Shown here in pieces: positions 3,364 through 50,758 of a stretch of DNA of 64,000 nt. Position 1 is the first letter of the stretch. Each line of letters opens with the position of its first letter. Under the pieces are notes generated by a model. It ran no database searches and was not told the DNA's origin. It worked only from the letters and a program-made list of their open reading frames with translations. The translations under genes and the position numbers were made by a program. This DNA comes from Burkholderiaceae bacterium (GTDB taxonomy: Bacteria; Pseudomonadota; Gammaproteobacteria; Burkholderiales; Burkholderiaceae_F), in contig JALHMQ010000001.1 in NCBI GenBank assembly GCA_022843955.1, forward strand, positions 372,001-436,000, given 5' to 3'.

Positions 3364-5382
3364 CTATTGCTGCTGCGTTGCCAGGCGGCTGCGCGCCTGC
3401 GCGATCACCGCCTGCAGTGCCTCTGGTGCCACCGGCTTGACCAGATGGGCATCGACCCCGGCCTCCGCCGAGCGATGGCGGTCGGCGTCCTGGCCGAAGC
3501 CGGTCAGGGTGCAGATGAAGATGTGCTTGCCCCAGCTTTCGGCGCGCATCGCGCGGGTGGCCTCCAGCCCGCCCATGCGCGGCATCGACACGTCCATCAG
3601 CACCAGCGCCGGGCGGAAGTGTGCTGCCGCAGTCAGCGCATCGATGCCGTCGTGCGCCAGTTCGACGTCGTGGTTGAAGATGCGCAACAGCATCGCCAGG
3701 GTGTCGGCGGCATCGATGTTGTCGTCCACGACCAGCACACGCAAGCCGGCGGGGAGCGACGCACTGCGGCGGACGCCGCGGTCCTGTTGCTCGTTCTCCG
3801 GCGCCAACGGCAGGTTGACGGCGAAGCAGCTGCCGGTGCCGGGGCCACCGCTGTGCGCGGTCACCGAGCCGCCATGCATCTCGACCAGCGAGCGCACCAG
3901 GGCCAGGCCGATCCCGAGGCCGTTGGACGCGCGGGCACGCGGTTCGTTGAGCTGCGTGAAGATCTCGAACACGCGCGACAGCGAATCACGCGGCATGCCG
4001 ATGCCGTTGTCGGTGACGCTGATCCGCGCCGACTCGCCATCGCTGTGCGCGCGCAACTCGATGCGGCCGCCCGCCGGGGTGTAGCGCGCGGCATTGGCCA
4101 GCAGGTTGGAAATGACTTGCGCAATGCGCATCGGGTCGACGTCGAGCCACACCGGTTCGACCGGAAGATCGATGACCAGCTGATGGCCCGAGGCATCGAC
4201 GGTGGTGCGGCTGGATTCCACCGCGGCACCCACCACGTCGGCGAGGTTCACCCGTGCGCGGCGTAGATGCAGCTTGCCGCGCGTGATGCGGTTGACATCG
4301 AGCAGGTCGTCGATCAGGCGCACCAGCTGGTGAATCTGGCGTTCCATCACCTCGCGCACCGCGTCCACGCGCTGTGGCTCATCGCTGGCGTGCTTGAGGA
4401 CCTGCAGGGCATTGCTGATCGGCGCCAGCGGGTTGCGCAGTTCGTGCGCCAGAATCGCGAGGAACTCGTCCTTGCGCTGGTCCGACGTCAGCAGCGCCGC
4501 CTCGATGCGCTTGCGGTCGCTGACGTCGCGCAGCAGGCCGCTGAAGATGCGGCGTCCGCTCGCCAGCGGCGTTTCGCTGATCGCCACTTCCATCGGGAAC
4601 ATGGTGCCGTCGCGCTTGAGGCCGCGCACTTCGCGGCCGATGCCGATGACGCGCCGCTCGCCGGTGATCAGGTAACGCCGCAGGTAGCCATCGTGGGCGC
4701 CGCGGTCGGGCACGGGCATCAACATCGATACGTTGTGGCCCACCATCTCGCTGGCAGCCCAGCCGAACATGCGCTGAGCGGCTGGATTGGCGCTCTCCAT
4801 GATGCCGCGCTCGTTGATCGTGATCACGCCGTCGACCGCGGTGTCGACGATCGCCTTCAAGCGCAGCGTGGTCTCCTGGCGCTGCTGCTCGGCATGGTGA
4901 CGCGTGGTCACGTCGCGCTCGACGACGGCAAAGCCGCGTACCTCTGTGCCGCTGCGCAGCACCGTCAGTTCGCCCTCGGCCCAGTAGCGCGAGCCATCGG
5001 CACGGCGGCGGGCGAAATCGGAAACCCGTACGCCGGCCGCCGCCAAGTCCAGGTCGCGCTGTGGCTGTCCCGCCGCCGCCGCCTCTGGGGGATGAAGCTG
5101 GGCGTACGGCCGTCCCATCATCTGCTTGGCACCATAGCCAGTCATGCGTTCAGCGCCGGCGGTCCAGAATGCAACGGTGCCGTTGCGGTCGAGCAGATAG
5201 ACCGCATGGTCGCAAAGGCCGTCAAGCACCAGCGCGAGCGGTGAGACGTCGTGGTCGAGCGCGATGCCGCGCTCGACCACGTCGGCATCTGCGGCGGTGA
5301 CGCCTTTGCGCGGCACGCCATCCTGCGCTGAGGTCCGCGCGGATCGCACTGGCGGCGGTCGCGATGTGAGCCTGCTATCCAC
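3364..5382 (-). CDS. PAS-PAS hybrid histidine kinase with receiver
   Basis: A 672-residue sensor kinase with no membrane segment or signal peptide, so probably cytosolic. Order: an N-terminal PAS domain (about 45-165), a second PAS with PAC (about 175-290), HisKA with phospho-acceptor His313 in AILAHELRNPL, a HATPase domain with DNGIGMP and GLGIGLALV, and a C-terminal receiver with Asp597 in VLMDVSMP. The start is GTG; the site upstream is a poor ribosome binding sequence, so the exact N-terminus is uncertain. It lies downstream of, and in the same direction as, the phospholipase D-like gene with about 140 bases between. The signal is unknown; PAS domains suggest redox, light or small-molecule sensing. 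Confidence 0.88.
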   Translation of the reverse strand: MDSRLTSRPPPVRSARTSAQDGVPRKGVTAADADVVERGIALDHDVSPLALVLDGLCDHAVYLLDRNGTVAFWTAGAERMTGYGAKQMMGRPYAQLHPPEAAAAGQPQRDLDLAAAGVRVSDFARRRADGSRYWAEGELTVLRSGTEVRGFAVVERDVTTRHHAEQQRQETTLRLKAIVDTAVDGVITINERGIMESANPAAQRMFGWAASEMVGHNVSMLMPVPDRGAHDGYLRRYLITGERRVIGIGREVRGLKRDGTMFPMEVAISETPLASGRRIFSGLLRDVSDRKRIEAALLTSDQRKDEFLAILAHELRNPLAPISNALQVLKHASDEPQRVDAVREVMERQIHQLVRLIDDLLDVNRITRGKLHLRRARVNLADVVGAAVESSRTTVDASGHQLVIDLPVEPVWLDVDPMRIAQVISNLLANAARYTPAGGRIELRAHSDGESARISVTDNGIGMPRDSLSRVFEIFTQLNEPRARASNGLGIGLALVRSLVEMHGGSVTAHSGGPGTGSCFAVNLPLAPENEQQDRGVRRSASLPAGLRVLVVDDNIDAADTLAMLLRIFNHDVELAHDGIDALTAAAHFRPALVLMDVSMPRMGGLEATRAMRAESWGKHIFICTLTGFGQDADRHRSAEAGVDAHLVKPVAPEALQAVIAQARSRLATQQQ

Positions 5383-41501: not shown

Positions 41502-41888
41502 CTATCCCCGCAGCACCAACACCGCTTCGACCTCGAACTGCGCGCCCTTGGGCAGGCTCGCCACGCCGATCGTCGATCGTGCCGGGTACGGTTGCGGCAT
41601 CACTTCGGCCATGATCTCGTTGACCTTGGCGAACTTGGCGAGGTCGGTAAGGAACAGGGTCAGCTTCACCGCGTCAGCCAATGTGCCTCCGCTCGCCAGT
41701 GCCACCGCCGCGAGGTTCTTGAAGGACTGGCGCACCTGAGCCTCGAAGTCCTGACTGACGAGTTCCTTGGTCTGCGGGTCGAGCCCAAGCTGGCCCGACA
41801 GGAACACCACCAGCCCGGTCTTCACCGCTTGCGAATAGGGGCCGATCGCCGGCGGCGCGTCAGCTGTCGTCACGATTGTCTTGTTCAT
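41502..41888 (-). CDS. RidA (YjgF/YER057c) family protein
   Basis: A 128-residue trimeric-type enamine/imine deaminase family member: IGPYSQAVKTGLVVFLSGQLGLDP, VRQSFKNLAAVALASGGTLADAVKLTLFLTDL and the C-terminal YPARSTIGVASLPKGAQFEVEAVLV with the conserved Arg that anchors the substrate carboxylate. Such enzymes remove reactive 2-aminoacrylate or act in specific catabolic pathways. ATG 41888 follows GGAGAGGAAG. Upstream, on the same strand, lies a metallo-hydrolase gene. Confidence 0.93.
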   Translation of the reverse strand: MNKTIVTTADAPPAIGPYSQAVKTGLVVFLSGQLGLDPQTKELVSQDFEAQVRQSFKNLAAVALASGGTLADAVKLTLFLTDLAKFAKVNEIMAEVMPQPYPARSTIGVASLPKGAQFEVEAVLVLRG

Positions 41889-41925
41889 CTTCCTCTCCAA
41901 CTGTCGTCAGAAACCGTCGAGTCAA

Positions 41926-42774
41926 TCACGCCGCCACGGCGAGGCGACTGAAGCGCGTCAGGGCGCCGGAGGCCAGATCGACCTCGTCGCCCGGGGCCAG
42001 TGCCAACACGGTGGCCTTGGGCACCGCGCGCTGCACGGCATCGACGAACTCGCCCCATGGTCGCGACTGCACGCCCATCATCTTGTGAAAATACTCGTGC
42101 GGCGGGTAGAGCAGCACGAGCCCCGGGTCGATCGCGGCGGCGCCGCGCGCCAGATCCGTCACGAAATCCAGCTGCATTCCACCCAGCAGCACGTCGGTCG
42201 GCAGCGAGCGTCCGAGCGCATGGATTTCGGCGTCGGTCATCTTGCTGTTGAAGCCCTCGTTGTAGTTCATGATCGTGGGGCCACCCTGCACCGCGACGTG
42301 AAAGCCGGTGTACGGCGAGTAGAACGGCGCGCGTGTGGCGCTGGACATCGCCCAGGACAGTTGCGTCGCATTGCCATGAAACACGGCTTTTGACAGCGCC
42401 TTCCACAGGTTGATGTCGCGGTGCTTCCACAGGAACGCACTGATCGCGTAGCCCGGCACGCTGACCGACTCGCCTGCCTCCAGCGGGTTGAGCCGGCCGG
42501 CCGCGATCCGGCCACGCCACTTGAGGAAGCCAATCGTGCTGGGTGAGCCGAACGCCTGTGCGCCGGTCGCTCGCAACAAGGGCGGCACGTCGAGAAAGTG
42601 CTCTTCGTGGCCATGTGTCACGCACACGTACCTGGCGTGCGAGAAATCCGTCTGCTCGAACCACTGCGCGCCGCAGTAGTGGCGCCAGAACGGGTCGAAG
42701 AACAACGCCCCGTGGGCACTCTCGATCGACAGCGCCGACCAGCCGTAGTAGCGCACCCGTACCGATGATTCCAT
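41926..42774 (-). CDS. MBL-fold (UlaG-like) metallo-hydrolase
   Basis: A 282-residue protein of the metallo-beta-lactamase fold. The metal motif THGHEEHFLD is an HxHxxH site in which the usual Asp of HxHxDH is Glu. A short upstream FFDPFWRHYCG matches the UlaG/RomA group. A C-terminal His segment (LLYPPHEYFHKMMG) could complete the site. ATG 42774 follows GGAGA. It lies between RidA and the TRAP receptor on the same strand, so probably a catabolic operon. Substrate unknown. Confidence 0.78.
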   Translation of the reverse strand: MESSVRVRYYGWSALSIESAHGALFFDPFWRHYCGAQWFEQTDFSHARYVCVTHGHEEHFLDVPPLLRATGAQAFGSPSTIGFLKWRGRIAAGRLNPLEAGESVSVPGYAISAFLWKHRDINLWKALSKAVFHGNATQLSWAMSSATRAPFYSPYTGFHVAVQGGPTIMNYNEGFNSKMTDAEIHALGRSLPTDVLLGGMQLDFVTDLARGAAAIDPGLVLLYPPHEYFHKMMGVQSRPWGEFVDAVQRAVPKATVLALAPGDEVDLASGALTRFSRLAVAA

Positions 42775-42853
42775 TCGCGTCTCCGTTGTTTGACTGCTGT
42801 CCCTGGCTGCCACGCAGAAGACTGCGTGAGCGGCCAGCTGACTCAGGTTGTCG

Positions 42854-43984
42854 TCACGCCGCGACCGGGCCGCGCGGGAAGAAGTGGCGGTAGGCCATCT
42901 CCGAGTTGACCGTGACTTCGTCCGCCCAGAAGACGACCCGGCGTGCCCACGTGCGCTGCGAATCCACGACCTTGGCGAACAGCGGATTCTCGCCCGAGAA
43001 CTTCTGGACCACGCCGTCCCAAGCCTTCAACTGCGCATCGAGAATGGCCGGCGGCGTCTTGATCGCGCGCACGCCCTGTTTGGTCTGCAGCTCGATGTAG
43101 TCGGTCGACATGCGATCCATCGCCTTCCATGACATTTCTGCGCTGCAGGCGTCCGCCGCCACCCGCATCACCGACTTCAGGTCGGCGGGGAGCGCCTCGA
43201 AACGCTTGCTGTTGACCATCAGCTCGAACACGTTGTTGGCCATATGGAAGCTGCGCTGGTAGTAGAACTTCGCCACGTCGGGAAAGCCCAGCAGCCGGTC
43301 GCCCGTGGCGTTGGCGAACTCCGCCGCGTCGAGCACGCCGCGGTCCAGGGCCGGCACGATATCTCCCGGGGCCATCTGCACGGGCGACATGCCGAGGGCC
43401 GCCATCATCGGTACCGCGAGCCCGGCAGTGCGGTACTTCACACCCTTGAGATCTGCCAGGGTCCGGATCTCCTTCTTGAACCAGCCCAGGGGTTCCGTGG
43501 GGACCGGGCCGTACATGAAGCTGTGAATGTTCAGGCGCGCCGCCGCTTGGATCTCGGCGTAGAGCTTGTCGCCCCCACCGTGCTGGATCCAGCCCAGCAA
43601 CTGATTGGCATCCATGCCGAAGTTGGGTCCCGCGCCATACAGGCCGAACGCCGTGTTCTTGCCGAACCAGAACCCGGGTACGGCGTGGCCGCCGTCGAGC
43701 GTGCCGCTGCTCACCGCTTCGACGACCTGCAGGCCGCCAACTACGGTGCCCGCCGGCAGCATTTGAATCTGCAGGCGCCCGCCGCTGATCTCGCCCACCT
43801 TCTTGGCGTAGTCGGTTGCAAACTCGTGAAAGATGTCCTTGGCCGGCCAGGCGCTCTGCATGCGAAGCGCGATGGGCGCTTGCGCGCGAACGACGGCAGG
43901 TGCCGCAACGGCGGTGACGCCGACCAGCGCGGCCGTGCGCAGGAAGCGTCGCTTGGCCGCGGTCTTGCTTGTGGCATTGGTCAT
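42854..43984 (-). CDS. TRAP transporter solute receptor (DctP family)
   Basis: A 376-residue periplasmic receptor with a Tat-type signal (KRRFLRTAALVGVTAVAAPAVVRAQ). The mature protein has the TRAP-T order: LRMQSAWPAKDIFHEFATDYAKKV, GGRLQIQMLPAGTVVGGLQVVEAV and the PLGWFKKEIRTLADLKGVKYRT block containing the carboxylate-binding Arg. ATG 43984 follows AAGGGG. The membrane subunits (DctQ/DctM) are not in the window, so it depends on components elsewhere. First gene of the leftward unit with the MBL hydrolase and RidA. Confidence 0.9.
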   Translation of the reverse strand: MTNATSKTAAKRRFLRTAALVGVTAVAAPAVVRAQAPIALRMQSAWPAKDIFHEFATDYAKKVGEISGGRLQIQMLPAGTVVGGLQVVEAVSSGTLDGGHAVPGFWFGKNTAFGLYGAGPNFGMDANQLLGWIQHGGGDKLYAEIQAAARLNIHSFMYGPVPTEPLGWFKKEIRTLADLKGVKYRTAGLAVPMMAALGMSPVQMAPGDIVPALDRGVLDAAEFANATGDRLLGFPDVAKFYYQRSFHMANNVFELMVNSKRFEALPADLKSVMRVAADACSAEMSWKAMDRMSTDYIELQTKQGVRAIKTPPAILDAQLKAWDGVVQKFSGENPLFAKVVDSQRTWARRVVFWADEVTVNSEMAYRHFFPRGPVAA

Positions 43985-44067
43985 GGAAACCCCTTGGCAT
44001 GAGTGGGAAGTGGTGGGCGGTCGATGTGACGCCGCGGACTGGAGCACTAGCGAGGACCGTGCCAAGT

Positions 44068-44195
44068 GTTTCCGATTTGGAAACTTGTGGAAACGGCTCT
44101 TCCTGCGTTTCTTCTGCTCTTTCTCAGTGCAAGAACGCACCGATTGATCGCAAACGACGGTTTCCGTTGCACGATTGTGTTTCCTTTCTAGAAAC
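44068..44195. promoter_or_regulatory. array of GTTTCC/GGAAAC half-sites
   Basis: GTTTCC or its complement occurs at 44068, 44079, 44089, 44160 and 44179, and a partial GAAAC at 44191. The first pair forms GTTTCC-n5-GGAAAC; the last pair forms GTTTCC-n6-GAAAC. Starts are spaced about 10-11 bases within each group, so they fall on one face of the helix. The array lies between the divergent TRAP receptor and DJ-1/PfpI genes. The XRE-cupin regulator encoded nearby is the obvious candidate binder. Confidence 0.6.
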
Positions 44196-44243
44196 AAGAC
44201 CTGCTGGCTCGATGCGGCGACGCGCAGCCTGATGGAGGCTCCG

Positions 44244-44876
44244 GTGAAGTTTGGATTCGTCATGTACCCGGGCGTCGAGCCCATCGATCTGGCGGCCGTG
44301 GGCGTGCTCTCGATGGCACGCCGCATCGAGCCCGCGTTGTCATTTGCGCTGGTAGCCGCGAGTGCGGCGCCGGTGGTGTTCAGCAACGGCCTGCGCGTGC
44401 TGCCTGATCACACGTTCGGCGCGGCGCCGGCGTTCGACGTGCTGCTGCTGCCTGGGGGACCCGGCTGGGTCGCGGCGCGTGGGGACGAGGGGCTGCTCGC
44501 CTACTTGCGCGGCGCCACGCCACCCGCGCGACTGGTCACGTTGTGCACGGGCGCCATGATTGCCGCTGCGGCTGGCCTGTTGGATGGCAAGACCGTGACG
44601 ACCAAGGTGGAAGCGGCGCCGGGCGAGACGCCGCCGATCGAGATCCTGGCGCGTGAGCATCCGGTGATCGCCCGCCATGCACTGCTGGTGGACACCGGAC
44701 AGGTGATCAGCGGCGGCGGCGTGTCGCTGTGCATCGACACCGTGCTGTATGTCCTGGAGCAGGCACTCGGTCCGGACAAGACGGCGGAGATCGCCCGCGT
44801 TCTCGAGTACAGCGCGGCACGCCGGGCGAATGCGCAGCGGCTGCCGATCGTGCAAACCGTGGGGGCGGCGGCATGA
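44244..44876 (+). CDS. DJ-1/PfpI-family protein
   Basis: A 210-residue class I glutamine-amidotransferase-like protein. The nucleophile elbow is VTLCTGAMIAAAAGLLDGKTVTT with Cys in LCTGA, preceded by LLLPGGPGW. It resembles the DJ-1/PfpI and isonitrile hydratase group. GTG 44244 is preferred because GGAGG lies five bases before it; ATG 44232 is an in-frame alternative with no ribosome binding site. Its stop overlaps the next start (ATGA), so it is coupled with the XRE-cupin regulator. Confidence 0.85.
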   Translation: MKFGFVMYPGVEPIDLAAVGVLSMARRIEPALSFALVAASAAPVVFSNGLRVLPDHTFGAAPAFDVLLLPGGPGWVAARGDEGLLAYLRGATPPARLVTLCTGAMIAAAAGLLDGKTVTTKVEAAPGETPPIEILAREHPVIARHALLVDTGQVISGGGVSLCIDTVLYVLEQALGPDKTAEIARVLEYSAARRANAQRLPIVQTVGAAA

Positions 44877-45517
44877 GCACCGCTCAACGCGCCAAACCAA
44901 CGCGGCCCAAGTCTGCGCCAGCCCCTGCGCGCAAGGTTGAAGCCAGCGCCCTCGACAAGCTGGGCGCGCGCATCCAGCACTGTCGCAGCAAGCAACAGCT
45001 GACGCTCGAGGGACTGGCCGAGCTGTCGGGGCTGTCCAAAGGCTATCTGTCGCGCATCGAGAACGGTTTGCAGACGCCGCCGCTCGGCACCCTGATCCGC
45101 ATCGCCGGTGCGCTCAACGCCGATGTCACTTCGCTGATCAATGGTGAGGGCACGCACGGCGCGCCCGCCTCACCGTTCGTATCGATCGTGCGGAAGACAG
45201 AGCGCTCGCCAGTGATCCGGGGCGCCTCCGCGTTCGGCTACGACTATGCCAGCCTGATCGGCGGCAACGTCACCGCCAAGATGGAAGCGTTCCTGTTCAC
45301 TTTCCCCAGCAACATCGACAAGTACGTCTTCTTCGAACACGACGGCGAAGAGTTTCTGTTCATCCTGAGCGGTCGTGTGGAGTGGCAGATCGGCCATGAG
45401 CGGCATCTGCTGGAGGCGGGCGATGCGGTGTACTTCGACGCACGATTGCCGCATCGGGGCAGGGCGCTGGATGGCGAGGCGAGCGCGCTGGTAGTGGCAC
45501 ATCGAGCCGGCGGTTAG
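44873..45517 (+). CDS. XRE-cupin transcriptional regulator
   Basis: A 214-residue regulator: XRE helix-turn-helix (about 22-80, LGARIQHCRSKQQLTLEGLAELSGLSKGYLSRIENG) and a C-terminal cupin (about 130-205, EHDGEEFLFILSGRVEWQIGHERHLLEAGDAVYFDARLPHRGRA). Cupin XREs typically bind small ligands and repress catabolic or uptake genes. It is coupled to the PfpI gene and probably acts on the GTTTCC array in the upstream divergent promoter region. Confidence 0.9.
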   Translation: MSTAQRAKPTRPKSAPAPARKVEASALDKLGARIQHCRSKQQLTLEGLAELSGLSKGYLSRIENGLQTPPLGTLIRIAGALNADVTSLINGEGTHGAPASPFVSIVRKTERSPVIRGASAFGYDYASLIGGNVTAKMEAFLFTFPSNIDKYVFFEHDGEEFLFILSGRVEWQIGHERHLLEAGDAVYFDARLPHRGRALDGEASALVVAHRAGG

Positions 45518-46198: not shown

Positions 46199-46936
46199 TC
46201 AGCGCTTGAGCCACGCCTCGAGCGCCGGCGCGAGCGCAGTGCTGGCGCGGTTACGCGCCGCGGCCAGGCTGCCCAGTTGTGCCTTGGGCAGTCGCAGGCG
46301 CACCAGCATCTCGGCCAGCGCCACCGCCGCGGTCGCGCCGTCGATCAGCGGCACCAGCACGGTCGACTGAACCGGGGCCGCGTGTCCGGCGAACACCGCG
46401 CCCGCCAACACGATGGCTTCCGCACCGTGGTGAGCCAAGCGCTCGCAGTGCTCGCGCAGCGCCTCGCGTGCGTCCAGCGGTCTGCTCAGGAAGTCCTGCG
46501 GGGTGAGGGTCAGCGCCTCCACCACGGGGACGCGGCTCGAAAATCCGTGGTGCGCGATCAGTTCCGCGTACATCGGCACCATGCGAGGGCCGAGCGTGAG
46601 CAGCGCGGCGCGGCGTGACACCAGCGTCGCGGTGATCAATGCCGCTTCGGTCAGCCCGACCACCGGCACGTCGAGCGCCTCACGCAGTGCGTCGAGCGCG
46701 GTGTCGAGCGACACCGCCAGCACCAGCGCGTCATACGGCTGCGGCTGCGTGAGCGCGGCCTGCAGCGCGGCATGGGCAGCAATGGCATTCTCGGTGCGCG
46801 TGCCGATCACGGCGGCACCGAACTCGCCGGTGGCCTCGACGATCTCGGTGCCCGGCAGCGCGCAGGCGCGGGCGCTGGCAGCGACCTGCGCCGTGATGGC
46901 AGGCGTGGTGTTGGGATTGAGCAGCAGCAGTCGCAT
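46199..46936 (-). CDS. hydantoin racemase-like Asp/Glu racemase
   Basis: A 245-residue member of the Asp/Glu/hydantoin racemase superfamily, close to HyuE in length and in its start MRLLLLNPNTT. The family usually uses two Cys; here neither is clear (LAVSLDTALDALREAL and IVLAGAVFAG occupy the expected places, with Ser and Ala). Racemase activity is therefore uncertain. The start overlaps the stop of the truncated deacetylase by one base, implying coupling. Placed by context in the hydantoin/ureide block. Confidence 0.8.
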   Translation of the reverse strand: MRLLLLNPNTTPAITAQVAASARACALPGTEIVEATGEFGAAVIGTRTENAIAAHAALQAALTQPQPYDALVLAVSLDTALDALREALDVPVVGLTEAALITATLVSRRAALLTLGPRMVPMYAELIAHHGFSSRVPVVEALTLTPQDFLSRPLDAREALREHCERLAHHGAEAIVLAGAVFAGHAAPVQSTVLVPLIDGATAAVALAEMLVRLRLPKAQLGSLAAARNRASTALAPALEAWLKR

Positions 46937-47442
46937 CACAGTCCCCGCGCCCGCCAGTGGCGGGCAATCGCATCGCGGCGGGCGATCCACACGCCGCCGC
47001 GGCTGCGCATGTGGTGCAGGATGGTGCGCAGCGCGCCGATGCGCGCCGGGCGACCCAGCATGCGCAGGTGCAGGCCGACCGACATCATCTTCGGCTGCGT
47101 CGCGCCTTCTTCCCACAAGGTGTCGAAGGCGTCGATCACGTAGCCGGCGAAATCGCTCGCCCGCACGAAGCGGTGGGTGTGTTGGAACTGCATGTCGTTG
47201 GTGTCGAAGGCGTAGGGAAGGAGAACGTAAGGTGTATCGCCGTGGCCGCCGCGCGAAAGCGTCACTGGCAGGTCGTTGCCGCAGAGGTCGCTGTCACACA
47301 GAAAGCCGGCGGCGCGCAGCAGCCTTCGCGTGTTCGGGCTGCTGGCCGAGCGGGTATGCCAGCCGACCGGCCGCGTGCCGCAGGCAACCTCGATCGCATT
47401 GATCGTGCGGCCGATCGCATGCGTTTCATCATCCTCGTCCAT
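46936..47442 (-). CDS. N-terminally truncated PuuE-like deacetylase
   Basis: A 168-residue frame that aligns with the C-terminal half of the neighbouring full-length protein at 53018: RPVGWHTRSASSPNTRRLLRAAG, YAFDTNDMQF, EEGATQPKMMSVGLHLRMLGRPARIGALR. About 140 residues with the first catalytic motifs are missing. The same C-terminal half in PuuE allantoinases carries GLHxRxxGRPAR. It may be inactive, a partner subunit or a recent remnant. ATG 47442 has no clear ribosome binding site. Confidence 0.7.
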   Translation of the reverse strand: MDEDDETHAIGRTINAIEVACGTRPVGWHTRSASSPNTRRLLRAAGFLCDSDLCGNDLPVTLSRGGHGDTPYVLLPYAFDTNDMQFQHTHRFVRASDFAGYVIDAFDTLWEEGATQPKMMSVGLHLRMLGRPARIGALRTILHHMRSRGGVWIARRDAIARHWRARGL

Positions 47443-47572
47443 GCGCGCGTGCGTTCTCGCAAGTTGTGTGCCATTGGGCAGGGCAGCGCAAGGGCGCAGG
47501 TCGCCGCGTGGGCGGGCGGCGTGATGCGATACCGACGGTCCCGCATTGACTCAAGACAGATCGACGTGGGCG

Positions 47573-47620
47573 AGTCGACCTAAAACTCGACCTGAGACTC
47601 GACCTGAGACTCGACCCAAG
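47573..47620. repeat. 12-base tandem repeat, four units
   Basis: Units AGTCGACCTAAA, ACTCGACCTGAG, ACTCGACCTGAG and ACTCGACCCAAG in direct succession, with a degenerate ACGTGACCT after them. Lies between the truncated deacetylase and the AMDase-like gene. A slippage-prone repeat; no CRISPR features (no spacers). Confidence 0.8.
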
Positions 47621-47643
47621 ACGTGACCTCCGCACCTTTCTGC

Positions 47644-48393
47644 CTAAGCGAGATCGAACAGACGGCCCCAACCACGCACGCGGCGCGCATCCACGCCGGC
47701 GGCGCGCAGCGCACCCCAGGCGGCGGTCGCCACGGAATCCAGCAGCAGTGCGCCGCTGCGCTGTTCGAAGTCGGCCGCCAGGGCGGCGCCGTCCATGTTG
47801 GTACACAGGACCATCACGGCCTGCGGACTGGCCTGCGCAACGTCATCGAGCATGCGGTCGATCACCGCGGGCTCGATGGTGGAGAAGTCGAAGTTGACGC
47901 TGATGCCGGCGTGGCGCTCGGCCACGCACTCGAACCCGGCGCGCGCGAAGTTGGCGACGATCGCCCGCTGCACGTCATCGGTGTAGGGCGACACCAGGCC
48001 AAAGCGCCGCACGCCGGCCAGGTGCATCGCCTCCACCATCGCCAGCACGGAAGACGACGCCCGGATGCCGGTGCGCTCCTCGATCGCGCGACACAGCGAT
48101 ACATCACGGTCGAAGCCGAGCCAGCCAGCCGAAGTGCCGTTCCAGCAGATCGCCTGGCAATGGGCGTCGGCCAGCAGGTCGGCGGCCGCCAGCATGGGCG
48201 CCATGTCGAACTGCCCCAGCGCGTCGGCGCCGAGCGCGATCTGGGTGACGCGAAAGCGGCCGGCGTGCACGCTGACCTCGGGCAGCCCGGCGAGCATCCG
48301 CGCGCTGACCGGCTCCAGGGTGGTGTTGGACGAGGGCGTCAGCATCCCGAGCAGGATGCGGTCGCGCTTGAATGACGCTGAGGCAGCAGACAT
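47644..48393 (-). CDS. AMDase/maleate isomerase-like racemase-superfamily enzyme
   Basis: A 249-residue protein of the Asp/Glu racemase superfamily, closest by eye to arylmalonate decarboxylase and maleate cis-trans isomerase: LGMLTPSSNTTLEP near residue 15, WNGTSAGW at 84-91, SSSVLAMVEAMHLAGVRRFGLVSPYTDDV, LCTNMDG with Cys197, and the final RGWGRLFD. The first catalytic Cys of racemases is Gly86 here, as Gly74 is in AMDase (MGTSLSFYRG). The second Cys is kept. The predicted activity is decarboxylation or isomerisation of an activated dicarboxylate, not racemisation. Six bases downstream of the GntR gene, same strand. Confidence 0.82.
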   Translation of the reverse strand: MSAASASFKRDRILLGMLTPSSNTTLEPVSARMLAGLPEVSVHAGRFRVTQIALGADALGQFDMAPMLAAADLLADAHCQAICWNGTSAGWLGFDRDVSLCRAIEERTGIRASSSVLAMVEAMHLAGVRRFGLVSPYTDDVQRAIVANFARAGFECVAERHAGISVNFDFSTIEPAVIDRMLDDVAQASPQAVMVLCTNMDGAALAADFEQRSGALLLDSVATAAWGALRAAGVDARRVRGWGRLFDLA

Positions 48394-48399
48394 GGTGTG

Positions 48400-49179
48400 T
48401 CAGGTCAGGGCGGCGGCGAGGTCGACTTCGATCTCCTCGTCGCCGCTGAGGTCCAGGTGATGTTCGACGTGGTTCAGGTGCTCGACCATCAGCGCTGCCA
48501 CGCGGCGCGCATCGCCGTCGGCGATCGCATCGGCGATCTCACCGTGCTCCTCGCCCAGGCAGGACGGCTTGGCCGGCTTGTCGTACAGGGCAATGATCAG
48601 GCAGGTGAGGGACGCCAGTTCGCGCAGCGTCTTGGCGAGCAGCGCATTGCCCGCCAGCTCGGCCAGCAGGATGTGGAACTCGCCGGACAGCCGCACGATC
48701 AGGCGCGCGTCGTTGGCAGCGCGCGCCTTGCGCTCGGCGGTGACGTGCCGGCGCAGCTGTGCCACGGCGCCACGGCGGTCGGGCTGGCGCGCCAGGCGCA
48801 TTGCGATGCCGGGCTCGATGAGCCGGCGCGCCTCGAACACGTCACGCGCCTGCTCGATCGTGGGCTGGGTGACAAAAGCACCGCGGTTTGGCTCCAAAGT
48901 GACGAGGCCTTCGTGTGCCAGTCGCGGCAGCACCGCGCGAACGCGGGCGCGCGATACCCCAAAGATCGCAGCCAGCCCTTCCTCGCCGAGCTTGGTTCCC
49001 GGCGGCAGCCGGTGTTCGAAGATCGCCGTCATCAAGCGGTCGTAGATGCCGTCGTCGGCGGCGGCTGGCACGGGGGCGGTACGCCGCTTGGTCACCAGGC
49101 TGGTGCTGCGTGGCGCCGGCTTGGTGCGTCTGGCTGCGCTCCTGGTGCGCGCAATGCGCGCGTTTGGCTGGGTCTTCAT
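48400..49179 (-). CDS. GntR-family regulator (FCD subfamily) of the ureide block
   Basis: A 259-residue regulator with a basic N-terminal extension (about 1-40, rich in Arg/Lys/Thr), a GntR winged helix (about 43-108, LAAIFGVSRARVRAVLPRLAHEGLV) and an FCD domain (about 115-245, RRLIEPGIA to MVEHLNHVEHHL). Divergent from the hydantoinase gene; the shared 160-base region contains TTGGCGCCAA at 49204. It is the only regulator in the block and is the likely binder of that palindrome. Confidence 0.9.
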   Translation of the reverse strand: MKTQPNARIARTRSAARRTKPAPRSTSLVTKRRTAPVPAAADDGIYDRLMTAIFEHRLPPGTKLGEEGLAAIFGVSRARVRAVLPRLAHEGLVTLEPNRGAFVTQPTIEQARDVFEARRLIEPGIAMRLARQPDRRGAVAQLRRHVTAERKARAANDARLIVRLSGEFHILLAELAGNALLAKTLRELASLTCLIIALYDKPAKPSCLGEEHGEIADAIADGDARRVAALMVEHLNHVEHHLDLSGDEEIEVDLAAALT

Positions 49180-49203
49180 GGTTGGCTACAGTCTTTAGCA
49201 GAA

Positions 49204-49233
49204 TTGGCGCCAACCCGATGGTCGGCTGGCGCC
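49204..49233. promoter_or_regulatory. candidate GntR operator pair
   Basis: TTGGCGCCAA (49204-49213) is a perfect 10-base palindrome. A second TGGCGCC starts at 49227, 22 bases (two turns) after the first. Both are in the divergent region between gntR (start 49179) and the hydantoinase (start 49340). The same motif with 23-base spacing recurs at 58430-58461. Confidence 0.6.
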
Positions 49234-49339
49234 GTCCGTGACGGCAATCGAAGGGTGGATTGTCCAGCCGACCCAGGTGCGGCCGGCGGTCCCAAGCTGA
49301 AGTGTCCAGCAATGGCCCGGATTTTGCGAAACAGCCCGC

Positions 49340-50758
49340 ATGAGCACATCCTTTGATCTGGTCATCCGCAATGCCCTTGCCGTGACGGCGGCCGACACGC
49401 AACAGGCTGACATCGGCATCCGCCAGGGCCGCATCGTGGCACTGGGCGAGGGTCTGGGCGCCGGCGCGCGCGAGATCGACGCTGCGGGGCGCCATGTGAC
49501 GCCGGGCGGCGTCGACGGTCACTGTCATCTGGACCAGCCGATGCCGCCGCCGGTGAAAATGGCCGACGACTTCATCACCGGCACCCGCTCGGCGGCCTGC
49601 GGCGGCACCACCACCGTGATCCCGTTCGCGGCACAGGAGAAGGGCAGTTCTCTGCGCGCTGCCGTGGAGGACTACCACCGCCGGGCCGACGGCAAGGCGA
49701 GCGTCGATTACGCCTTTCACCTGATCGTCAGCGACCCGACTCCCACGGTGCTCAACGATGAACTGCCGGCGCTGATCGATGCCGGCTACACCTCGTTCAA
49801 GCTGTACATGACCTATGAGGACCTGAAGCTCGACGACGGCCAGGTGCTCGATGTGCTCGATGTGGCGCGCCGCCACGGCGCGATGGCGATGATCCATGCC
49901 GAAAACAGCGACTGCATCGAGTGGCTGACCCGTCGCCTGGAAGCCGCCGGCCGCACCGCGCCGCGCTGGCACGCGCACGCGCGGCCGATGCTGGTGGAGC
50001 GCGAAGCCACCCACCGCGCGATCGCGCTGTCGCAACTGGTGGATGTGCCGATCCTGATCGTGCACGTCTCCGGCCGCGAGGCGGTGGAGCAGATTCGCTG
50101 GGGACGCGCGCATGGCCTGTCGATCTTCGCCGAGACCTGCCCGCAGTACCTGTTCCTCACGGCGGAGGATCTTGGCATCGACAACAGCTACATGGGCGCG
50201 CGCTGCGTGTGCAGCCCGCCGCCGCGCGACAAGGCCAACCAGGAGGTGATCTGGGACGGCCTGCGTGACGACCTGTTCACCGTGTTCTCCTCCGACCACG
50301 CGCCGTTTCGCTGGGACACACCCGACGGCAAGCACCCCGGCGGCAAGGAGGTACCGTTCCGCCACATTCCCAACGGCATTCCGGGCATCGAGACGCGCTT
50401 GCCGCTGCTGTACTCCGAAGGCGTGCTGACCGGGCGCATCAGCATCAACCGCTACGTCGAACTGACCTCCACCAACCCGGCCAAGGCCTACGGGCTGCAT
50501 CCGCGCAAGGGCACCATCGCGGTGGGCGCCGATGCCGACCTCGTGATCTGGGACGAGAAGGAGGTCGTGATCGACAACGATCGCCTGCACCATAACGTCG
50601 ACTACACGCCCTATGAAGGCATGAAGCTCGGCGCCTGGCCGGCGCTGACGCTGCTGCGCGGCCAGGTGGTGTGGGACGGCACGCGCTTCACCGGCGCGGT
50701 GGGGCAGGGTCAGTTCCTCGCCTGCGGCAAGCCGACCCTGGTGCCGCAGCGCCGCTGA
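49340..50758 (+). CDS. D-hydantoinase / dihydropyrimidinase
   Basis: A 472-residue cyclic-amidase of the hydantoinase/dihydropyrimidinase family, a two-zinc enzyme that opens hydantoins or dihydropyrimidines to N-carbamoyl acids. Visible ligands: His61 and His63 in VDGHCHLDQ, carbamylated-type Lys154 in FKLYMTYED, His186 in MIHAENSD, His242 in VHVSGREAVE and Asp319 in SSDHAPF. The length is normal. Transcribed divergently from gntR and followed 24 bases later by the amidase gene. Confidence 0.95.
   Translation: MSTSFDLVIRNALAVTAADTQQADIGIRQGRIVALGEGLGAGAREIDAAGRHVTPGGVDGHCHLDQPMPPPVKMADDFITGTRSAACGGTTTVIPFAAQEKGSSLRAAVEDYHRRADGKASVDYAFHLIVSDPTPTVLNDELPALIDAGYTSFKLYMTYEDLKLDDGQVLDVLDVARRHGAMAMIHAENSDCIEWLTRRLEAAGRTAPRWHAHARPMLVEREATHRAIALSQLVDVPILIVHVSGREAVEQIRWGRAHGLSIFAETCPQYLFLTAEDLGIDNSYMGARCVCSPPPRDKANQEVIWDGLRDDLFTVFSSDHAPFRWDTPDGKHPGGKEVPFRHIPNGIPGIETRLPLLYSEGVLTGRISINRYVELTSTNPAKAYGLHPRKGTIAVGADADLVIWDEKEVVIDNDRLHHNVDYTPYEGMKLGAWPALTLLRGQVVWDGTRFTGAVGQGQFLACGKPTLVPQRR

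Follow-up and report, generated by a model that had tools for sequence, protein, structure and literature searches.

Regulators of the XRE-cupin type are common and act as local switches of metabolic gene clusters, but operators have been defined for few of them. The window (the whole stretch of DNA analysed, 64,000 nucleotides) contains a dense array of the hexamer GTTTCC, or GGAAAC on the opposite strand, in the gap between two divergent genes next to a gene for such a regulator. The questions raised by this locus are whether the array is an operator and, if so, whether the neighbouring XRE-cupin protein is the one that reads it. The genes around the array are as follows:

41502..41900, minus strand: RidA-family gene downstream of dctP, on the same strand (PF01042, E=1.5e-36)
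41926..42813, minus strand: weakly metallo-beta-lactamase-like gene between dctP and ridA (PF12706, E=8.8e-4, below the family cut-off)
42854..43984, minus strand: dctP, TRAP-type solute-binding protein, 376 aa (PF03480, E=1.1e-38); proposed target
44232..44876, plus strand: pfpI, DJ-1/PfpI-family protein, 214 aa (PF01965, E=8.5e-11); proposed target
44873..45517, plus strand: XRE-cupin regulator P0003, 214 aa, HTH (HTH_31/HTH_3) plus Cupin_2

The names that the initial annotation had given to the three genes at the array (TRAP receptor, PfpI and XRE-cupin) agreed with the domain matches PF03480, PF01965 and HTH plus Cupin_2. The start codon of the P0003 gene overlaps the stop codon of pfpI (ATGA). 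On the other side of the gap, the RidA-family gene at 41502..41900 is possibly part of the dctP transcript. Past the regulator, at 46199-50758 of the window, there are Asp/Glu/hydantoin racemase, arylmalonate decarboxylase-like, GntR/FCD regulator and amidohydrolase genes, which suggests that this region serves the breakdown of cyclic amides or similar compounds.

Two palindromes and additional half-sites make up the array

All five full copies of the hexamer described initially were verified in the sequence, with starts at 44068 (+), 44079 (-), 44089 (-), 44160 (+) and 44179 (+), as was the partial copy, GAAAC, at 44191-44195. Start-to-start spacings in the array are 11, 10, 71, 19 and 12 bp; the description of neighbouring copies as 10-12 bases apart is correct for 11, 10 and 12 and fails for the step from 44160 to 44179 (19). 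Two perfect 17-bp palindromes (44068-44084 and 44179-44195), which together take up three full copies and the partial one, had been overlooked. The elements of the gap are listed below:

43985..43990, minus strand: further GGAAAC copy, adjoining the dctP start codon; missed in the initial annotation
44068..44084, no strand: palindrome O1, GTTTC-N7-GAAAC (GTTTCCGATTTGGAAAC), dctP side; proposed operator dyad, centre 44076
44089..44094, minus strand: extra half-site GGAAAC, 10 bp past the second half of O1
44160..44165, plus strand: extra half-site GTTTCC, 19 bp ahead of the first half of O2
44179..44195, no strand: palindrome O2, GTTTC-N7-GAAAC (GTTTCCTTTCTAGAAAC), pfpI side, including the partial copy at 44191-44195; proposed operator dyad, centre 44187

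O1 and the half-site at 44089 form a triple, GTTTCC-N5-GGAAAC-N4-GGAAAC. Read toward its own gene, each group runs GTTTCC, GTTTCC, GAAAC, and the two groups are mirror images on either side of the gap's midpoint. As functional units, the two palindromes with their extra half-sites are more plausible than single hexamers at even spacing.

Local clustering of the hexamer and rarity of the palindrome

We shuffled the 247-bp intergenic region 43985-44231 20,000 times with dinucleotides preserved. No shuffle had five copies within 128 bp, in agreement with the earlier statement that such density is beyond chance; none contained two GTTTC-N7-GAAAC palindromes, and 18 contained one. GGAAAC/GTTTCC showed the strongest local clustering of all hexamers in the 64 kb (score 1.6e-6; next, 1.2e-3). 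Its total in the window was ordinary, 19 copies vs 14.8 expected, a count reached by 21 of 100 shuffles; the excess is therefore purely local. The gap is AT-richer than the window as a whole (GC 56% vs 67%), and base composition or chance might on that ground be held responsible for the array. The 0/20,000 result and the recurrence of the word outside the window, assessed against a reversed-word control (see below), refute this explanation, and we regard it as practically excluded.

In the 5.54-Mb genome, exact GTTTC-N7-GAAAC occurs at three places, two of them in the array, and the reversed control at none. The third place was rejected as a cluster-linked site: it lies inside a 466-aa ORF unconnected to the cluster. 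GGAAAC-N4-GGAAAC has a single occurrence in the genome, at the array. With one mismatch allowed, the palindrome showed no genome-wide excess (44 places vs 71 for the reversed control), so its count does not support a large regulon.

The word recurs between dctP and pfpI at other loci

The order dctP(-)/pfpI(+)/xre-cupin(+) was found at ten other distinct loci (L010, L011, L013, L063, L064, L065, L066, L070, L071 and L072), the last six of which come from one second genus, of another family than the window. The initial annotation had proposed looking for the same hexamer array at homologous loci and would have taken its absence from orthologous promoter regions as a refutation; the array withstood this check. 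Among the 11 dctP/pfpI intergenic regions (window included), GGAAAC was the top hexamer, with 29 copies vs 2.29 expected from shuffles and at least one copy in every region (11/11); in this count several gap borders were placed by eye, with errors of at most a few tens of nucleotides at the dctP end.

The palindrome was kept at a subset of these loci. On the pfpI side, exact GTTTC-N7-GAAAC was present in the window and in all six second-genus loci (6/10 other loci); on the dctP side, the same six (6/10) had a counterpart with one mismatch, GTATC-N7-GAAAC. Two palindromes with at most one mismatch were found in 7 of the 11 regions vs 0 of 22,000 shuffled regions, 296 of which had at least one. 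The N7 palindrome was absent from L010, L011, L013 and L063 (4/11), all of which retain GGAAAC on the dctP side. On the pfpI side, a GTTTCC and a GGAAAC separated by 22-23 bp lie close to the pfpI start in L010 and L011, L013 has one GTTTCC, and L063 has no hexamer copy.

In the second genus there is also a near-invariant block between the dctP promoter and the start codon (L066:577-668, minus strand, and the same stretch in L064, L065, L070, L071 and L072). It has a GGTTGT...ACAACC inverted repeat (GGGACAGGTTGTT ... AACAATACAACC) and could be either a leader structure or the site of another protein; no compensatory changes were seen.

The regulator was present in 6 of 21 genomes of the second genus. 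The pfpI-side palindrome pattern, GTTTCNTTTNNGGAAAC, was found in 8 of the 21: all six that carry the regulator and 2 of the 15 that lack it. One of the two regulator-less matches (L104) lies inside a long ORF for a transporter-like protein and the other (L109) within a 246-codon stop-free frame, as judged by locus centring; neither locus had a match to any of nine query proteins. The window's own genome has a second P0003 homologue (contig 16, L102) with no hexamer cluster upstream; two GTTTCC copies 16 bp apart are found at the 3' end of that gene (4672-4693). In G040 and G041, the two relatives from the window's own genus, the only XRE homologues are stand-alone ones, and these have no hexamer clusters.

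Copies accompany homologous regulators in different gene sets

Around P0003 homologues (L014, L011, L016, L091-L099 and the window), the recurring neighbours are dctP or an MFS transporter part, a ChrR-type cupin, RidA and PfpI, in varying combinations. The triple GTTTCC-N5-GGAAAC-N4-GGAAAC is also found in Cupriavidus plantarum (L014) and C. pampae (L015), where it precedes genes for RidA, MOSC, ferredoxin reductase and XRE-cupin proteins, in this order; the XRE-cupin protein encoded there is 46-47% identical to P0003. The exact triple occurred in 2 of 398 Cupriavidus-family genomes, each time at the regulator's own cluster, and its reversed controls in none. Both genomes are among the at least 12 of the 398 in which a homologue of P0003 reached E<=1e-40. 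At the loci of the other ten, copies precede MFS, ChrR-type cupin, XRE, pfpI or ridA genes (10/10), and not every gap carries copies. L090, from the same genus as the Cupriavidus loci, has a triple array with N5 in place of N4. A search of the genus for triples with a second gap of 3-4 bases, a pattern that leaves out the L090 gap (5), returned the same 2 of 60 and added nothing. L090 also has a second hexamer group directly upstream of its MFS gene (1013-1136; forward copies at 1013 and 1067, reverse copies at 1109, 1119 and 1131, spacings 10 and 12), outside the gaps of the 23-locus count below. Among 399 genomes of the order, the exact triple was found in two, the window and G351; the G351 match lies inside an unrelated pilin-like ORF and was taken as chance rather than as an operator.

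We counted the word at 23 loci with homologous regulators, window excluded, and tolerated slight overlap between gene matches. GGAAAC was present in 79 copies in 9,860 intergenic bp vs 4.7 expected from base composition, and in 45 copies in 59,601 bp of coding DNA. The reversed word, CAAAGG, gave 4 intergenic and 21 coding copies, and the best other of 60 letter permutations gave 21. After removal of three near-identical loci, 65 intergenic and 40 coding GGAAAC copies remained in 20 loci. The loci share descent and are not independent trials, and these count statistics overstate the evidence. Homologue counts from the genome searches are lower bounds, with up to 7 first-look candidates scored per genome in the large searches. 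Outside the 23 loci are the contig-edge loci L005 and L012, the stand-alone homologues L006/L100, L007/L101 and L009/L102, and L008, L040 and L067-L069, as well as the distant homologues L017-L058 (26-37% identity, L040 apart), which were screened for the hexamer and the exact palindrome.

In the non-redundant locus set (window included), copies were found in the gaps dctP/pfpI (11/11), MFS/ridA (2/2), cupin/MFS (4/4), MFS/XRE (4/4), MFS(-)/cupin(+) (2/2), cupin/XRE (2/2), MFS/pfpI (1/1), XRE/pfpI (3/6) and MOSC/reductase (1/2). No copies were found in pfpI/XRE (0/10), reductase/XRE (0/2) or cupin(-)/dctP(-) (0/1), or in the two remaining gaps of L016. The copies thus track gaps in which a promoter is expected, and they are missing where pfpI and XRE form a single unit. 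In the window and at 22 of the 23 other loci, the hexamer lies in gaps within the gene cluster of the regulator itself. The exception, L016, in which pfpI lies beside a 50% identical XRE-cupin gene, has no hexamer in any gap and is a plain miss. As far as sequence comparison can tell, the strength of the evidence is the recurrence of the word across different gene sets; the presence of the same word in the corresponding intergenic DNA of other homologous-regulator loci favours the initial view of the array as an operator-like element tied to the XRE-cupin protein.

Promoter overlap at related loci and helical spacing

At all ten other dctP/pfpI loci, the dctP-side GTTTCC is positioned 4 or 5 bases after TTGACN, that is, in a promoter-like spacer. 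In the second genus, the imperfect half GATAC is part of a -10-like GATACT, which may be the reason for the one mismatch there. In the window the TTGAC element is missing, and a scan of the intergenic region found no sigma-70-like promoter, so promoter overlap at this locus is presumed from the others. A scan of the same region for terminator-like sites was also empty.

The array had been described as helically phased, and spacings across loci do favour about 10.5 bp. For 27 adjacent spacings of at most 70 bp, vector strength peaked at 10.25-10.5 bp and was 0.68 at 10.5, a value as high as which was found in 0 of 20,000 uniform draws. When the window was excluded and each spacing and orientation was counted once (19 values), it was 0.62, reached by 6 of 20,000 draws. 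Inverted and direct pairs are in the same phase and divergent (RF) pairs fit worse (0.44); some spacings, such as 13, 14, 19 and 26, are off the helical phase. The distance between the two groups gave a different result. The initial annotation saw in it a layout that would favour looping between two operator clusters. The dyad distances are 111 bp in the window (O1 to O2) and 118, 118, 119, 119, 120 and 129 bp in the six second-genus loci, or 10.6-12.3 turns at 10.5 bp. Looping is left without specific support, since no whole number of turns is kept and four dctP/pfpI loci have no second palindrome.

The XRE-cupin protein

All domains of P0003 scored above cut-off, with an N-terminal HTH (HTH_31, E=2.1e-11; HTH_3, E=6.9e-11) and a C-terminal cupin (Cupin_2, E=1.3e-13). 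In an alignment of 23 homologues, K56, Y58, S60, I62 and N64 of the HTH and H156, E160 and H194 of the cupin were invariant. Stand-alone homologues have much of the same HTH, so this domain alone does not yet account for specificity. The AlphaFold monomer model had a pLDDT of 77.6 and a pTM of 0.49, with low confidence in the linker and the domain arrangement. Its best Foldseek match was the solved structure of the HTH-cupin protein 1y9q of Vibrio cholerae (E 3.5e-11), which P0003 also matched in sequence over the HTH (E 4.9e-6). Whole-chain TM-scores to 1y9q were low (0.31/0.36), because the relative placement of the domains differs or was wrongly modelled. The P0003 HTH also matched chains of SinR (E about 1e-5), a protein not known to have a cupin domain. 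NCBIfam did not place P0003 as SinR: the best match was PRK08154, far below cut-off, and SlrR scored 24.5 bits vs a cut-off of 250.

A proposed mechanism and its alternatives

Judged by these sequence patterns, the array quite probably contains operators for two divergent promoters and is recognised by the XRE-cupin protein, which would repress both dctP and its own operon. The half-site would be GTTTCC and the strong unit the inverted pair GTTTC-N7-GAAAC, with O1 serving dctP and O2 serving pfpI-xre. A dimer would sit on each palindrome through its two HTH domains, and the extra half-sites, at a distance of roughly one or two turns of the helix, would bring more subunits to the same face of the DNA and raise occupancy by cooperative filling. 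In its ligand-free state, the regulator would occupy the promoters and hold down substrate uptake (dctP) and pfpI-xre, itself included; binding of a metabolite to the cupin domain would free them. We infer, in particular, that this XRE-cupin protein is the binder, that it represses rather than activates, that it binds as a dimer and fills further sites cooperatively, and that a ligand releases it.

The array could instead be a real operator of a regulator encoded elsewhere, with the XRE-cupin gene merely adjacent. The XRE-cupin locus L016, with no hexamer in its gaps, fits that view. However, the hexamer accompanies XRE-cupin genes across TRAP (dctP), MFS/cupin and ridA gene sets, copies lie in the regulator's own promoter gap (MFS/XRE and cupin/XRE, each without exception), and both exact-triple genomes of the 398 fall within those with a close homologue; we consider an outside regulator rather unlikely. 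It is also conceivable that P0003 activates one promoter, or represses one and activates the other, and in the window, where no promoter could be placed by the scan relative to O1 and O2, an upstream activator position is possible. At ten other loci, however, GTTTCC falls in the spacer that separates a -35-like from a -10-like element of dctP. Moreover, the available part of one report describes eight XRE-cupin proteins of P. aeruginosa as exclusive inhibitors (PMC7901475), and that of another describes DbuR as a repressor (PMC12724383). Activation by the same protein is unlikely on this evidence.

That one oligomer bridges both groups into a repression loop is likewise improbable in our judgement. 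Two dyads do lie on one intergenic DNA in 7 of the 11 dctP/pfpI loci, and looping has been proposed for the XRE protein SinR, whose multi-copy sites extend over 80-100 bp in the part of the study available (PMC3163267). But dyad distances of 111-129 bp (10.6-12.3 turns) do not keep a whole number, the second palindrome is absent in 4 of 11 loci, and the groups would serve two promoters, which would account for the pair without a loop. Hairpins in RNA or single-stranded DNA, as parts of a leader or attenuator, are a very unlikely source of the inverted repeats: direct-order hexamers, from which no hairpin arises, are also kept at other loci, the dctP-side copy is inside the promoter and upstream of any transcript start in ten loci, and the window region gave no terminator-like site. 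What speaks for hairpins is that strand 44060-44200 folds somewhat better than its shuffles (z -2.2, 2/200 as good, DNA parameters).

Beyond the proposed repression from O1 and O2 by P0003, we suggest tentatively, and with more doubt than conviction, that the code recognised by this XRE-cupin subgroup is helical and flexible. Its units might be individual GTTTCC half-sites, irrespective of orientation, that share one face of the DNA at whole-turn spacings (about 10-11, 20-22, 30-32 and 62-64 bp), with a multivalent protein, tetrameric or larger, binding the differing layouts found in gene clusters of the TRAP, MFS, cupin and ridA types. Should the helical layout prove functional, these loci provide a natural series of half-site spacings and a test of how far a multivalent XRE protein tolerates different arrangements. 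The word can be traced through dctP/TRAP, MFS, ChrR-type cupin, ridA and pfpI sets and predicts the regulon of an undescribed XRE-cupin subgroup; it supplies targets for gel-shift assays and may aid the search for the substrate of these clusters.

Comparison with known regulators

In the literature searched, we found no description of a GTTTCC word for an XRE-cupin regulator and no report of a helical half-site grammar for this class; most subscription papers were outside its scope, which makes this weak evidence of novelty. The locus resembles those of PsdR, PauR, ErfA and DbuR, as far as the available parts of the reports go, in the order of HTH and cupin, in the position of the regulator beside its presumed targets and in the palindromic form of the sites (PMC7901475, PMC12724383, PMC10965056). 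Pseudomonas XRE-cupin regulators are described there as local, exclusive inhibitors of transcription with palindromic sites (PMC7901475). The two predicted sites, GTTTC-N7-GAAAC of 17 bp, fall within the palindrome length of about 15-25 bp that is expected of XRE-cupin operators, and would be bound accordingly. DbuR of P. putida has, in the portion of the report at hand, a 20-bp palindrome, AATTCTCATATATTAGAATT, over the -10 element, and also regulates an operon with a Rid-family gene (PMC12724383). The overlap of site and promoter known from the Pseudomonas proteins, so far as it is described in those parts, is matched in the ten other dctP/pfpI loci and is presumed for the window.

In other respects the array differs from those systems. 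PsdR, with the site TTAAG-N5-CTTAA (PMC10965056), and DbuR have single palindromes in the available descriptions, whereas the present word, GTTTCC with N7, recurs in copies of varying number and orientation at helical spacings. The layout is closer to that of SinR of Bacillus subtilis. According to the part of the study available, the SinR word GTTCTYT is present in multiple copies and varied orientations over 80-100 bp per promoter, with an inverted pair bound best (PMC3163267). Similarly, the word described here is found in 1-4 copies per promoter gap, in FF, RR, FR and RF orders at other loci. The words themselves differ, GTTTCC in the array vs GTTCTYT, as given in the same part of that study, for SinR, a tetrameric XRE repressor.
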